64,000 nt of DNA, from assembly GCA_001302245.1 (NCBI GenBank), contig LGYU01000014.1, positions 62,001-126,000 of the forward strand. Reading direction: 5' to 3'. A program made the position numbers and the translations under genes. Origin of the DNA: Chitinophagaceae bacterium PMP191F (GTDB lineage: Bacteria; Bacteroidota; Bacteroidia; Chitinophagales; Chitinophagaceae). Below the pieces are notes generated by a model, which ran no database searches, was not told where the DNA came from, and saw only the letters and a program-made list of their open reading frames with translations. Below are positions 18,855-55,987 of the stretch, one piece after another (the first letter of the stretch is position 1; each line of letters begins with the position of its first letter).

Positions 18855-18965
18855 GAGCTGAAGTCAGCTGTCTGAAGTCTGAAAAATCTCCTGGATTATC
18901 AAGAGTGTATTGTTAAAACAAAAGCCTAAAGTCAGCTCTTTCAGACGCCGTACTTCAGACTTCGT
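18852..18965. repeat. Inverted word-repeat cluster (gaagtctgaa type) after LolC/E gene
   Basis: gaagtctgaa (18874-18883) is inverted as ttcagacttc (18954-18963), and aagtcagct occurs twice (from 18861 and 18930). The left edge tgagagctga includes the permease stop codon and matches part of the repeat in hemC. The same gaagtctgaa word recurs at 24561. Confidence 0.6.
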
Positions 18966-18999
18966 ATTTCTACAACAATATTAAGGACAGAAAAATAAT

Positions 19000-19029
19000 A
19001 AAGCGCCGGTATATAATACACGGCGCTTT
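19000..19029 (-). terminator. Terminator after transketolase subunit gene
   Basis: aaagcgccg (19000-19008) pairs perfectly with cggcgcttt (19021-19029), followed on the minus strand by TATTATTTTT. Probably serves both convergent genes. Confidence 0.75.
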
Positions 19030-19030
19030 A

Positions 19031-19060
19031 CCTATAACTTATTACTTAAATCTACAACTT
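19031..19060. repeat. Word repeat (aacttattacttaaa type)
   Basis: cctataacttattacttaaa followed by a ctacaactt word. aacttattacttaaa (19036-19050) is identical to 33327-33341 at the end of argE'. It begins directly after the transketolase stop codon. Confidence 0.6.
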
Positions 19061-19062
19061 GC

Positions 19063-24518: not shown

Positions 24519-24560
24519 CAGGGATATTCCTTACATTTGTCGGAATACGTCCGGAAGACG

Positions 24561-24676
24561 GAAGTCTGAAAGTCCGGAAGAGGGATCACTTCTTCCGGAT
24601 TTTTAATCTTTCAATCATCCGGCAAACAGGGAACCGTATTTCCTTCCGATTTCCGGATCTCCTGTCTTTCAGACTT
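24561..24676. repeat. Inverted word-repeat cluster with terminator before scpA
   Basis: aagtctgaaag (24562-24572) is inverted as ctttcagactt (24666-24676). Between them the word ccgga(a/t) occurs many times, and a hairpin ccggaaga/tcttccgg (24574-24581 with 24591-24598) followed by ATTTTT can terminate the DUF3078 transcript. The gaagtctgaa word also occurs at 18874. Confidence 0.6.
24574..24605 (+). terminator. Terminator after DUF3078 gene
   Basis: ccggaaga (24574-24581) pairs with tcttccgg (24591-24598), then ATTTTTA. It lies 56 bp beyond the stop. Confidence 0.65.
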
Positions 24677-24691
24677 TATAAAGCCAATGTT

Positions 24692-33189: not shown

Positions 33190-33202
33190 ATCTTAATTTC
33201 TT

Positions 33203-33341
33203 TTAGGTTATAGGTTGTAAGTGATAAGTTATATGTTTTAGTCATCCGGTTATTAGTATTTGCCCGGTTGTAGCTTTTGCTCTTGGTTAACAATATTTCA
33301 GCAACAGCCGCAAACCTATAACCTACAACTTATTACTTAAA
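33203..33341. repeat. Inverted word-repeat pair in the argE'-argH spacer
   Basis: Left part (33203-33236) contains aggttataggttgtaagtgataagtt; right part (33312-33341) contains cctataacctacaacttattacttaaa, the same words on the other strand. The right part includes the last codons (Leu-Ser-Asn-Lys-Leu) and stop of argE'. aacttattacttaaa (33327-33341) is identical to 19036-19050. The 75 bp between show no gene. Confidence 0.65.
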
Positions 33342-34408: not shown

Positions 34409-34411
34409 ATA

Positions 34412-34490
34412 GTAATTGAAAGTTGAGCATTGAAAATCGATTATTGAATATTAACTCTCAATATACAATGAACAATTTTCAATATTCACA
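34412..34490. repeat. Inverted word repeat (attgaaaat type) between argB and argE'
   Basis: cattgaaaat (34428-34437) is inverted as attttcaat (34475-34483) within a run of related words (attgaa, gaatatt, caatata, caatattc). It starts just upstream of the argE' start codon. It carries no gene. Confidence 0.5.
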
Positions 34491-34508
34491 TAAACGCTAC
34501 CAGGTTGG

Positions 34509-36267: not shown

Positions 36268-37422
36268 TTAATGAACGGGATTTGAGATCAATTCTTGAAT
36301 TTCTTCTTTTACTGCTTCCAGGAATTCGTCGGCATCTTTTTTCCGCAATGCCAGTGAAGGCAATAAGCGGATCACGTTCGGCTTAGCTTCGCCGGTGAAA
36401 ATTTTATGTTTCCACAGCAGGTTTTTCTTCAGGTCTTTCAGTGCCTGTGGTACATCAAAACCGATCATTAAACCGCGGCCGCGTACATTCTTAATTTCAG
36501 CGATCTTGCCTAGTTCACGCATCAGGTATTCACCTACTTCAGCAGCATTGCTGATGAGGTTTTCCTGTTCTATTACTTCCAGTACAGCCAATGATGCTGC
36601 ACATGCCAGGTGATTACCTCCAAATGTAGTACCCAGCATAAAGTGTTTGGACTGGATCTGCGGAGCAATCATGATACCAGCCACGGGAAAACCGTTGCCC
36701 ATGCCTTTGGCCATAGAGTAAATGTCTGCATCCACACCGGAGAAATCCTGTGAAAAGAATTTACCGCTGCGTCCGTATCCGCACTGTACACTGTCAGCAA
36801 TGAATATAGCGCCATATTCTGTACACAGTCTGCGGATGGTTTGTAAAAAGACATCACTGGCTACATTGATGCCACCTACACCCTGTATGCCTTCAATGAT
36901 CACCGAAGAGATTTCATTGCCTTGTTCTTTGAAGCAGGCTTCCAGCGCTTCTTCATCGTTGAAGGGAAGAAATATTACATTCGGTGTCTGGTTCACGGGA
37001 GCTACCAGCGCAGGGTTGTCTGTGGCAGCAACAGCCAAAGATGTTCTGCCATGAAATGATTTGGTAAAAGCGATGATCTTTTTGCGGCCATTGGTGAATG
37101 ATGCCAGTTTCAGTGCATTCTCATTGGCTTCAGCACCAGAGTTGCATAGGAATAACTGGTAGTCTGGTTTACCGGATACTTTGCCCAGCTTGTCAGCCAG
37201 TTCTTCCTGCAACGGCATTTTTACTGAATTGGAATAGAAACCCACTTTGTTCAGTTGATCGGTAATACGCTGTACATAATGTGGGTGTGTATGGCCTATG
37301 GAGATAACGGCGTGTCCGCCATAAAGATCAAGATACTGATCGCCATTGCTGTCCCACACATAAGAGCCTTTGGCTTTCACGATGGCGATATCATTAATTG
37401 GATAAACGTCGAATAACTTCAT
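36268..37422 (-). CDS. argD: N-acyl-ornithine aminotransferase
   Basis: PLP enzyme that turns N-acylglutamate semialdehyde into N-acylornithine. 384 residues of aminotransferase class III. Marks are GGHAVISIGHTHPHY, LCNSGAEANENALK, SFHGRTSLAV, the PLP aspartate in FIADSVQCGYGR and the Schiff-base lysine in YSMAKGMGNGFPV. It ends 5 bp before argF' starts. Upstream it is separated from argC by a broken gene and repeats. Confidence 0.95.
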   Translation of the reverse strand: MKLFDVYPINDIAIVKAKGSYVWDSNGDQYLDLYGGHAVISIGHTHPHYVQRITDQLNKVGFYSNSVKMPLQEELADKLGKVSGKPDYQLFLCNSGAEANENALKLASFTNGRKKIIAFTKSFHGRTSLAVAATDNPALVAPVNQTPNVIFLPFNDEEALEACFKEQGNEISSVIIEGIQGVGGINVASDVFLQTIRRLCTEYGAIFIADSVQCGYGRSGKFFSQDFSGVDADIYSMAKGMGNGFPVAGIMIAPQIQSKHFMLGTTFGGNHLACAASLAVLEVIEQENLISNAAEVGEYLMRELGKIAEIKNVRGRGLMIGFDVPQALKDLKKNLLWKHKIFTGEAKPNVIRLLPSLALRKKDADEFLEAVKEEIQELISNPVH

Positions 37423-37423
37423 T

Positions 37424-37447
37424 GTTATAAGTTGTAGGTTATAAGTT
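37424..37447. repeat. Word repeat left of the broken four-helix-bundle gene
   Basis: ttataagttgtaggttataag, immediately upstream of the argD start. It is the inverse of the words at 37851-37876, so the pair brackets the pseudogene. Confidence 0.6.
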
Positions 37448-37492
37448 AATCACTGCTTTTCTGACTTTGTTGATCAGTGCGATGAGTATGCT

Positions 37493-37802
37493 TTAAACCT
37501 TGTTAATAATATCCGATAATTCTTCAAATACCGGGTTGTCTATATAACTGAGATCCCTGGAAAGGATCAAAAAATATTCTGCTTCATTTGCACAGCCCAG
37601 GGAAATATTTAAAAAATGCACCAATTCTGTTTGTGATCTTTCGCCACACCCTCCGCAATGTTGACTGGTACGGATGCTGCTTTTTTGAGTTGACTGGTCA
37701 GGCTGTAAAGCTCTTCTTGGGGAAAAAGTTTGGTGATCTTATATACCCTGAGTGTAATTCATGTGCTTTCTCCCAAACTTTCAGGTCTTTGTAGTTCTGC
37801 AT
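37493..37802 (-). pseudogene. Four-helix-bundle (S23/IVP family) gene, two frameshifts
   Basis: Reading three frames in turn from the ATG at 37802 rebuilds a protein of about 102 residues: MQNYKDLKVWEKAHEL, then LRVYKITKLFPQEELYSLTSQ with LKKAASVPVNIAEG, then a third piece with RSQTELVHFLNISLGCANE and AEYFLILSRDLSYIDNPV. This is the order of the four-helix-bundle family related to 23S rRNA intervening-sequence proteins and Avd. Frame changes fall near 37752 and near 37650. The conserved DLxVWxxA, NIAEG and LxxSLGSxxE-like motifs are all recognisable. It interrupts the arginine cluster between argC and argD and is bracketed by inverted word repeats. It is clearly decayed unless both shifts are sequence errors. 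Confidence 0.85.
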
Positions 37803-37850
37803 AGCATATTGATTTTTAATGATGCTACTATCAAAACGCAACCTGTATTC

Positions 37851-37876
37851 ACTTATAATTTACAACCTATAACTGG
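37851..37876. repeat. Word repeat right of the broken four-helix-bundle gene
   Basis: cacttataatttacaacctataactgg, directly after the argC stop on the minus strand. It is the complementary version of the words at 37424-37447. Confidence 0.6.
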
Positions 37877-37879
37877 TTT

Positions 37880-38881
37880 TTAAAACCCAACCGATTTCAG
37901 CCTCAACCCTGTACTTTCATCCAATCCAAACAAAAGATTCATGTTCTGAACAGCTTGTCCGGAGGCTCCTTTCAGCAAGTTGTCGATAGCAGAATGGATC
38001 ACCAGCTGGTTATCTATTTTTTCCAGTTGGATCAGGCATTTGTTGGTATTTACTACCTGTTTCAATGCAATGGCTTCTGTACTTACATGGGTAAAGGGAT
38101 GATTCTTATAGAACTCCTGGTACAGCGACAGTGCTTCTGCTTCACTTAAAGAGCAATCAATCTGCGAGCTTACAAAAATACCCCTGGTAAAATCTCCTCT
38201 CCAGGGAATGAAGCGTACTGCTGCGCCCGGAGCCGAAGGTGTTGCAGGAAATGATCCCTGTAAAGTGTGCAACGACTGATAGATCTCCTTTAAATGCTGA
38301 TGGGTAAGTGTTTTGTATGCCTGTATGTTGTTGGCTCTCCAGCTAAAATGTGAAGTGGCTGATAAGCCCTGCCCGGCACCGGTAGAACCGGTAATGCCGG
38401 TGGTATATACATTGTCCAATAAACCGGCTTTTGCCAATGGCAATAAACCCAGTTGAATACCGGTTGCAAAACATCCGGGATTGGCAATGTTGTGTGCAGC
38501 TTTGATCAGTTCTTTCTGCAACTCCGGAAGACCATATACAAACTGGCGACTGCCAATCACTGCACCATGACTTAAACGGAAGTCCTGTGACAGATCAATG
38601 ATCTTGATATGATCGGCAATGGTATTTTCTGTCAGGAATTTTTTTGCTTCTCCATGACCTACGCACAGAAATAAAACATCAATCTCATCGCTCAGTTCAC
38701 CGGAAAAAATAAGATCAGTATCACCTTCCAGGTCTGTATGTACTTTGGCAATGGGGTTGCCTGCATTGCTTTTACTGTTGATAAAAACAATCTCTGCATG
38801 GGGGTGGTTAATGAGAATTCTCAATAACTCACCACCAGTATATCCTGCGCCACCCGCAATACCTATCTTGATTTTGTTCAT
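37880..38881 (-). CDS. argC: N-acetyl- (or N-succinyl-) gamma-glutamyl-phosphate reductase
   Basis: NADPH-dependent reduction of N-acylglutamyl phosphate to the semialdehyde. The ATG at 38881 is preferred to an in-frame TTG at 38887; it gives 333 residues. Marks are the dinucleotide motif GIAGGAGYTGGELLRIL, the active-site cysteine in NPGCFATGIQLGLLPL and the TGSTGAGQG loop. Next in the cluster is the broken gene, then argD. Confidence 0.95.
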   Translation of the reverse strand: MNKIKIGIAGGAGYTGGELLRILINHPHAEIVFINSKSNAGNPIAKVHTDLEGDTDLIFSGELSDEIDVLFLCVGHGEAKKFLTENTIADHIKIIDLSQDFRLSHGAVIGSRQFVYGLPELQKELIKAAHNIANPGCFATGIQLGLLPLAKAGLLDNVYTTGITGSTGAGQGLSATSHFSWRANNIQAYKTLTHQHLKEIYQSLHTLQGSFPATPSAPGAAVRFIPWRGDFTRGIFVSSQIDCSLSEAEALSLYQEFYKNHPFTHVSTEAIALKQVVNTNKCLIQLEKIDNQLVIHSAIDNLLKGASGQAVQNMNLLFGLDESTGLRLKSVGF

Positions 38882-38900
38882 GTTCAAGGATGTTGTTGTG

Positions 38901-38999
38901 AAATTGTGAATGGTGAGTTGTGAGTGCTCGCTGTTGTTTTTGATGCTTTATAGGTCTATCAACTTTTCAATAGCAAAGACCAGTTCAACATTCAACATC
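38901..38999. repeat. Mixed word repeats in the argC-argG spacer
   Basis: gtgaatggtgagttgtgag (14 bases identical to the insert in hemC) is followed by caacttttcaat and by ttcaacattcaacat words. It fills most of the 120-bp spacer; no gene is seen in it. Confidence 0.5.
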
Positions 39000-39001
39000 T
39001 C

Positions 39002-40954: not shown

Positions 40955-41007
40955 TGTGGTAACAAACTGAAAATGTAAATAACGTAACTACACGAGTTAC
41001 AAACGAT

Positions 41008-41042
41008 ACATAAATTCCATACCGTAGGGGTATGATTTATGT
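41008..41042 (-). promoter_or_regulatory. Hairpin/operator candidate upstream of the arginine cluster
   Basis: acataaattccatacc (41008-41023) and ggtatgatttatgt (41029-41042) are inverted, with a two-base bulge. It lies 54-88 bp before the first start codon of the cluster, where an arginine-responsive repressor or leader structure could act. No regulator-specific consensus was confirmed. Confidence 0.35.
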
Positions 41043-41370
41043 AAACACGAAGACCTTATGGTAAGTGAGTATCAACGTCGTACCCTGACGGGGACAGGAC
41101 GACAAACAAAAACTGCACGAAGCTGTACAGGAAAAACCCCACGCACTATAGCCTCCGCACTGGCGGAAACATCAGCGAGCATTATGGTGAGATTTTTTTG
41201 CATTTTCTCTTTAAATGGGCTTTAAACTCAAATGGTTTTACACCGCAAAGAAACTACTTTTTTAATATGATGGGGCTTTTTTTATTGTAAAATTTTAGTG
41301 AAGGTTGGGCTGGAGGATGGTCAGACGGCCTCATGACCAGCCGGTTTGGTTGTTAAGTCGTGACCCCTAC

Positions 41371-41406
41371 AACCATCAGACAATCAAACCATCAAACAAT
41401 TGAACC
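41371..41406. repeat. Word repeat (caatcaaaccatcaaac type)
   Basis: aaccatcagacaatcaaaccatcaaacaattgaacc abuts the stop codon of the alpha/beta hydrolase lipoprotein gene on the minus strand. It is built of near-repeats of the unit (a)ccatca(g/a)ac(a)aat. Confidence 0.45.
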
Positions 41407-41407
41407 T

Positions 41408-55852: not shown

Positions 55853-55895
55853 ATGCCAAATGCCGAACGCTGAAGACTTAACGCAAAGACATTTA

Positions 55896-55932
55896 AAAAG
55901 GCAGAAAGGATTCGCTTTCTGCCTTTTGTATT
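55896..55932 (+). terminator. Terminator after the YcxB-like gene
   Basis: aaaaggcagaaag (55896-55908) pairs perfectly with ctttctgcctttt (55915-55927), followed by GTATTT. Probably bidirectional. Confidence 0.8.
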
Positions 55933-55987
55933 TATACAGGGTTGGTATTATCTCCACACCATCAATTAAGATCTGTCAATCCGCGTT

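Follow-up and report, generated by a model that had tools for sequence, protein, structure and literature searches.

The window analysed here is a stretch of 64,000 nt from Chitinophagaceae bacterium PMP191F (contig LGYU01000014.1, positions 62,001 to 126,000). In its arginine gene cluster, a spacer of 457 nt between argC and argD is filled on the minus strand by a gene of the S23/IVP family and two flanking arrays of 7-nt words (heptads), hereafter called arms. The features, in window positions, are:

37880..38887, minus strand: argC, the upstream neighbour (open reading frame; orthologues 61-72% identical in relatives of the same family; its stop borders the element)
37846..37874, minus strand: 5' arm, tandem heptads (C)AGTTAT-AGGTTGT-AAATTAT-AAGTGAA (from the sequence; directly 3' of argC)
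37439..37802, minus strand: decayed S23/IVP four-helix-bundle gene (PF05635 pieces, translations, and undamaged homologues between argC and argD in relatives)
37423..37451, minus strand: 3' arm, heptads of the AAGTTAT word, reverse-complemented (from the sequence; abuts the argD start codon)
36268..37422, minus strand: argD-type aminotransferase, the downstream neighbour (open reading frame; its orthologue adjoins the element in relatives; its start borders the element)

Read along the minus strand, the argC stop is followed by AAACCAGTTATAGGTTGTAAATTATAAGTGAATA, composed of AAGTTAT-word heptads, and then by the S23-like gene, which runs from an ATG at 37802 to a stop at 37439-37441. Next come GATTAACTTATAACCTACAACTTATAACA, with the AAGTTAT heptads inverted, and the ATG of argD. 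Scored for repetition at a lag of seven, the 5' arm (word AAGTTAT) reached 1.19 and the 3' arm 1.38.

A sequence-only reading of 37424-37876 had proposed an S23/IVP-type gene, rebuilt from three successive frames, and this assignment was confirmed by the PF05635 profile. The spacer matches it in two minus-strand pieces (E 2.5e-10 and 4.1e-9) that both exceed the curated cut-off of 33.8 bits (43 and 39 bits); intact relatives score up to 142.7 bits. Both frameshifts described in that reading are present, and an additional in-frame TAA at 37493-37495 makes the gene more broken than was claimed. The proposed position between complementary repeats was also borne out: the self-complementarity score of the spacer, 34, was the best of 106 co-directional spacers sampled, whereas no mismatched spacer pair reached 24. 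The gene lies between protein genes and outside any rRNA gene. We consider this stretch to be probably a dying copy of an element made of an S23 gene and its heptad arms.

Inverted heptad arrays at S23 genes

The genome of PMP191F contains 15 loci with PF05635 (16 matches), at least six of which carry stops or frameshifts. At most of the other 14 loci, 7-nt repeats follow the stop codon of one gene and their reverse complement precedes the next gene. The words vary by locus (for example TAGTGAA/TAGTCAA, AAGTATA, GAGATTT, CGGTTTC and AAGTACG), and therefore the copies have a common layout without common terminal words. The earlier proposal of a minimal element, an S23 gene plus terminal words, thus stands as far as the unit with inverted arrays and its intact copies are concerned, but a single word set for all copies does not: the word is private to each element, while what the elements have in common is their layout, a 7-nt period and an AG core. 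Intact copies with unrelated flanks, which that reading had named as evidence against itself, likewise count against its wording of "the same words" and leave the idea of a unit standing. Just outside the window, about 2 kb ahead of its first position, L010 (contig C6:59836-60153) carries an undamaged S23 gene whose clear inverted arms read TAGTGAA/TAGTCAA.

Among 37 loci (eight from the genome of PMP191F and the rest from relatives), the arms of one locus matched each other with a score of at least 26 in 59% of cases, as opposed to 2.4% for mismatched arms. The corresponding values were 46% and 4% for 26 loci taken phylum-wide. A set of 80 named loci, from Bacteroidota, Balneolaceae and two MAGs (one of Chlorobiota, one labelled Saccharospirillaceae), was drawn from a scan with a narrower alignment and is biased to one S23 subfamily. 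In this set, 49% of own arms and 8% of mismatched arms scored at least 30; complementarity was weak in 26 of the 80. A scan with a diverse S23 alignment found no conserved stretch. Because terminators dominate plain local alignment over all spacers and make it weak for arm detection, it was replaced by lag-7 scoring, with the threshold set at 1% of shuffled flanks. By this measure, arrays lay upstream of 77%, downstream of 63% and on both sides of 56% of 149 S23 loci; lags of 5, 6, 8, 9 and 10 gave 1-7% at the same threshold. In the 80 named loci, the autocorrelation of the arms was 0.55, 0.54 and 0.48 at lags of 7, 14 and 21 and about 0.27 at other lags.

Of 296 near-complete Bacteroidota genomes, 235 contain PF05635, which is missing from all 14 genomes used as controls. 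Self-complementary arms flanked all eight S23 loci that were read on cyanobacterial plasmids and were clearly heptameric in seven; several come close to perfect tandem repetition (GAACAGG, AGTAGGG, AAAGCTA), and those of Stanieria are weaker. With one Riemerella and one Gemmatirosa copy that are also armed, armed S23 genes are known from Bacteroidota, Cyanobacteria and Gemmatimonadota. The termini consist of tandem 7-nt units in intergenic DNA beside start or stop codons. Arms and S23 gene form one unit, and we hold this with high confidence. On the Gemmatirosa plasmid (L301), the S23 arms have a period of 8 nt (GGGCAGGA) and retain the AG core; it may be that unit length is a property of the S23 lineage.

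Across 83 loci, both arms of a locus have one consensus heptad in common, with the unit W-A-G-W-W-N-T. The 5' arms have a fixed AG in 71% of cases and its complement CT in 7%, and the polarity of the arms is therefore constant. Where several S23 paralogues of one genome have clear arms, each has its own word, the same in both arms; the word therefore belongs to the element rather than to the genome. Word similarity rose from 0.45 at S23 identities below 40% to 0.70 above 80%, and word and protein identity were correlated (Mantel rho 0.35, permutation maximum 0.19), which may reflect co-evolution or shared descent only. Permuting the heptads within one arm did not lower the match between arms (mean fraction at or above the observed value, 0.48). 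Exact heptad-by-heptad pairing of the arms is not supported by this null permutation test, and since permuted heptads match as well, it is the word that is kept and not a particular stem.

This result bears on the possibility that the arms are simply an RNA stem with no connection to the S23 protein and with a role between operon genes as RNase III site, terminator or stabiliser. Such a stem would fit arms that are inverted and placed directly after stop and before start codons, and in predicted RNA folds, 23-47% of the outermost 70 nt at the 5' end pair with the 70 nt at the 3' end, as opposed to 15% when another locus supplies the 3' arm. Stems of this kind occur in rRNA intervening sequences (IVSs), where RNase III cuts them (PMC4990558). 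However, the order of heptads is unmatched between arms, a stem needs no exact 7-nt period, and the arms are far commoner at S23 genes than in other spacers. The protein itself is strongly conserved: dN/dS was 0.03-0.10 in every scorable close pair, and this strong purifying selection indicates that S23 is a working protein gene. We therefore regard a stem independent of S23 as unlikely and retain the unit of gene and arms.

The argC/argD junction in relatives

The spacer between argC and argD exists in filled, decayed-remnant and empty states, so orthologous spacers occur with and without the gene, a point that the sequence-only reading had put forward for checking. A resident gene conserved in all relatives, which that reading had set against its own proposal, was not what we found: among the relatives sampled, eight have an undamaged gene, one (L084) has a remnant and 18 have none. 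Matched arms were present in nine of nine carriers (the eight intact relatives and the decayed copy of the window), with words ranging between species from AAGTTAT through TAGGCTT to ACGCTTA. Intact copies measure mostly 402-616 nt, and most non-carriers have word-free spacers of 10-103 nt. One non-carrier (L091) has a single array at this junction, whose spelling follows that of the S23 element elsewhere in the same genome (L065).

The S23 gene could be a resident of the operon, inherited vertically with many losses and with fast-evolving arms. Purifying selection on S23, the remnant in L084 and the decay of the window copy all agree with this, as does the possibility that the S23 genes linked to argC form one clade (p-AU 0.92). 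The distribution of carriers does not agree. On a tree of ArgC and ArgD, which here takes the place of a species tree, carriers are interspersed with non-carriers, with 10 changes for 10 positives, and several sister pairs of a carrier and a non-carrier are supported at 95-99. S23 identity and ArgCD identity were uncorrelated (rho 0.06). When L130, an intact carrier from a different family with the order argC, S23, argD, was added as the ninth, the S23 and ArgCD trees rejected each other (AU p 4.9e-6 and 9.7e-5). Simple vertical descent at this junction is thus rejected by the maximally patchy presence and the mutually conflicting trees, and we consider a resident gene with many losses improbable. 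Together, the conflict between the trees and the possible single clade suggest that the S23 lineage keeps its junction while changing hosts.

Junctions elsewhere were kept in a similar manner. Both flanking genes were homologous in 2% of comparisons at S23 identities below 0.3 and in 97% above 0.8. Those recognised by eye include fadJ/fadA (46 loci with a thiolase downstream), odhB/lpd, nuoC/nuoD and moxR/DUF58; in cyanobacteria, they are cas6/cas4 and the junction between two ribonucleotide reductase genes. We conclude that junction-specific horizontal movement of the elements is likely. No recombinase was found for them and no insertion or excision event was observed, and at argC/argD the movement could proceed by homologous recombination through the flanking genes.

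Heptad arrays without a gene

Three other spacers of the arginine cluster carry heptads and no S23 gene:

33190..33322, minus strand: spacer between argH and argE, words AAGTTAT/AGGTTGT, both arms (from the sequence and lag-7 scoring)
34409..34508, minus strand: spacer between argE and argB, a different word (TTGAAAG type)
38888..39001, minus strand: spacer between argC and argG, a different word

It had been claimed that the other arginine spacers repeat the words of the argC/argD element. This is the case for argH/argE, a gene-less array with that element's word, but not for argE/argB and argC/argG, which spell others. Further gene-less heptad spacers or traces occur in the window at 24519-24691, 40955-41407 and 55853-55987. 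A spacer between convergent genes at 18855-19062, also without S23, has a GAAGTCT-type word with an AAGTTAT-type word at its end.

In the family to which PMP191F belongs, gene-less lag-7 arrays occupied 7-40% of spacers in genomes with at least four S23 genes and 0 of 49, 0 of 41 and 2 of 32 spacers in S23-free genomes. S23-rich genomes of other families had them in 0-5% of spacers. Scaling of these arrays with S23 copy number was thus rejected phylum-wide and holds within this family only, and because gene-less arrays are rare in other S23-rich families, the spread of arms is not general. Some gene-less arrays are spelled with a word that a resident S23 element also uses: in genome G010, L318 agrees letter for letter with L248 and L249 over at least 25 nt, and in genome G022 a gene-less array reuses the resident word GGATGTT.

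Heptamer arrays might instead arise by slippage, as proposed for STRR/LSSR heptamers, with S23 genes settling beside them. The abundance of gene-less spacers in the genome of PMP191F and in those of its family that have S23 would suit such an origin, as would the published arrays described without mention of S23 in the passages of PMC4679880 and PMC4692102 that we consulted. Slippage does not account for the near absence of arrays from S23-free genomes of the same family, for argC/argD spacers that lack S23 and are mostly array-free, for an element-specific word common to both arms within one genome, or for gene-less arrays spelled with the words of resident S23 elements. We thus find it an improbable source of the arms and favour arms that belong to S23 elements. 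In two loci (L242:16546-16874 and L250:9105-9313), gene-less arrays are nested: an inner array, with a word of its own, is mirrored within an outer one, a picture that the insertion of one element into the loop of a second would give.

Known systems and a proposed mechanism

S23 open reading frames sit in the rRNA IVSs of Leptospira and Coxiella, and the origin of IVSs was still called unclear in 2016 (PMC4990558). The elements described here belong to the same gene family and are of similar size (428 nt for the Coxiella IVS, PMC4990558; 402-616 nt for most intact argC/argD copies). Both consist of an open reading frame closed by complementary termini, as found here at argC/argD and at S23 loci, and both are patchily distributed, with horizontal transfer and few fixed insertion sites (PMC4990558). 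In contrast to IVSs, which lie in rRNA, the S23-heptad elements lie between protein genes of operons and end in tandem heptamer arrays with element-specific words; their S23 is under strong purifying selection, whereas Coxiella S23p is probably not made (PMC4990558). Among the loci read, none lay inside rRNA and conserved 23S motifs were absent from the S23 loci; single motifs gave three stray hits, including two in S23-less argC loci.

Intergenic arrays of the heptamer TAACTGA in Beggiatoaceae (PMC4679880) and, with about 70 inverted pairs, of GGGAATC in Xanthomonas and Nostoc (PMC4692102) are described in passages of these papers as of unknown function. The Xanthomonas pairs are convergent and lie just after stop or just before start codons, according to the same passages (PMC4692102). 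These arrays, like cyanobacterial STRRs, resemble ours in their 7-nt unit and their position beside start or stop codons; they differ in that the passages propose regulatory or G-quadruplex roles and make no mention of S23 (PMC4679880, PMC4692102). REP/RAYT palindromes and MITEs are also short inverted spacer elements with gene-less copies, but S23-heptad copies have tandem heptads, no common terminal sequence, and S23 in the place of a transposase. A search of an open-access library retrieved no paper that joins S23 to heptamer arrays. The S23-heptad element is widespread and apparently undescribed; we place it with the IVSs, and it may prove to form a separate class.

Our reading, which we consider probable as a whole, is of an IVS-like, junction-specific and horizontally moving element, of which we infer the mechanism of mobility and the contact between S23 and the heptads. 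An element of about 400-600 nt, made up of a 7-nt word array, an S23 gene and the inverted array, would fill a junction within one operon. By analogy with S23-bearing rRNA IVSs, it would act as a hairpin-closed insert, tolerated through its position outside the host's coding message. Each subunit of an S23 oligomer would recognise one AG-core heptad on RNA or DNA in single-stranded form, and this recognition would help the element to copy, home or be kept. Binding by S23 would serve either movement or, as with rRNA IVSs, what becomes of the transcript, and decay of S23 would leave the arms behind.

The ring protein TRAP binds a short motif at fixed spacing, and the S23 homologues 2gsc and 2rld are PDB entries with five chains each. 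From this precedent and these structures, we propose that S23 binds its own heptads, one per subunit; we put recognition of the heptads by S23 at slightly below an even chance. The title of the 2gsc paper, as cited in PMC3936711, refers to five four-helix bundles. RNA-level processing of the kind seen in rRNA IVSs is a more tentative suggestion, drawn from the analogy.

An alternative in which an IS200-like Y1 transposase or a reverse transcriptase of DGR type acts in trans on the elements, which would then be non-autonomous transposons or MITEs, is very unlikely: S23 copy number does correlate with the number of Y1 transposases (rho 0.59, p 5e-5, 41 relatives) and S23 resembles the DGR accessory protein Avd, a member of a homologous fold family (PMC10053308), but three genomes with at least three S23 genes have no Y1, RVT_1 is absent from 14 of 22 such genomes and from that of PMP191F, the elements lack common termini, and insertion is junction-specific. 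Because the genome of PMP191F has no RVT_1 match, which also sets it apart from DGR systems, a reverse transcriptase is not needed, and dependence on one is rejected for this genome.

We know of no role for S23 proteins. Under the preferred reading, two orphan observations, heptamer repeats and rRNA IVSs, gain one partner that may explain both. If S23 recognises heptads, each protein and its cognate 7-nt word would form an orthogonal nucleic-acid recognition pair, with many pairs per genome, and a predicted consequence is that DNA can be inserted between operon genes without breaking them. More speculatively, S23-heptad elements might be a new, junction-specific mobile class without recombinase or reverse transcriptase, in which an S23 ring reads a private word and of which IVSs, STRRs and the GGGAATC and TAACTGA arrays would be members or remnants.

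Genes annotated as 23S_rRNA_IVP have been noted in cas loci, where they were treated as having a cas-associated function and their arms were not noted (PMC3936711). The copies between cas6 and cas4 on plasmids of Pseudanabaena and Anabaena 90 (L292 and L298) carry heptad arms, and the Anabaena 90 CRISPR-Cas operon with the S23 element is of type I-D.
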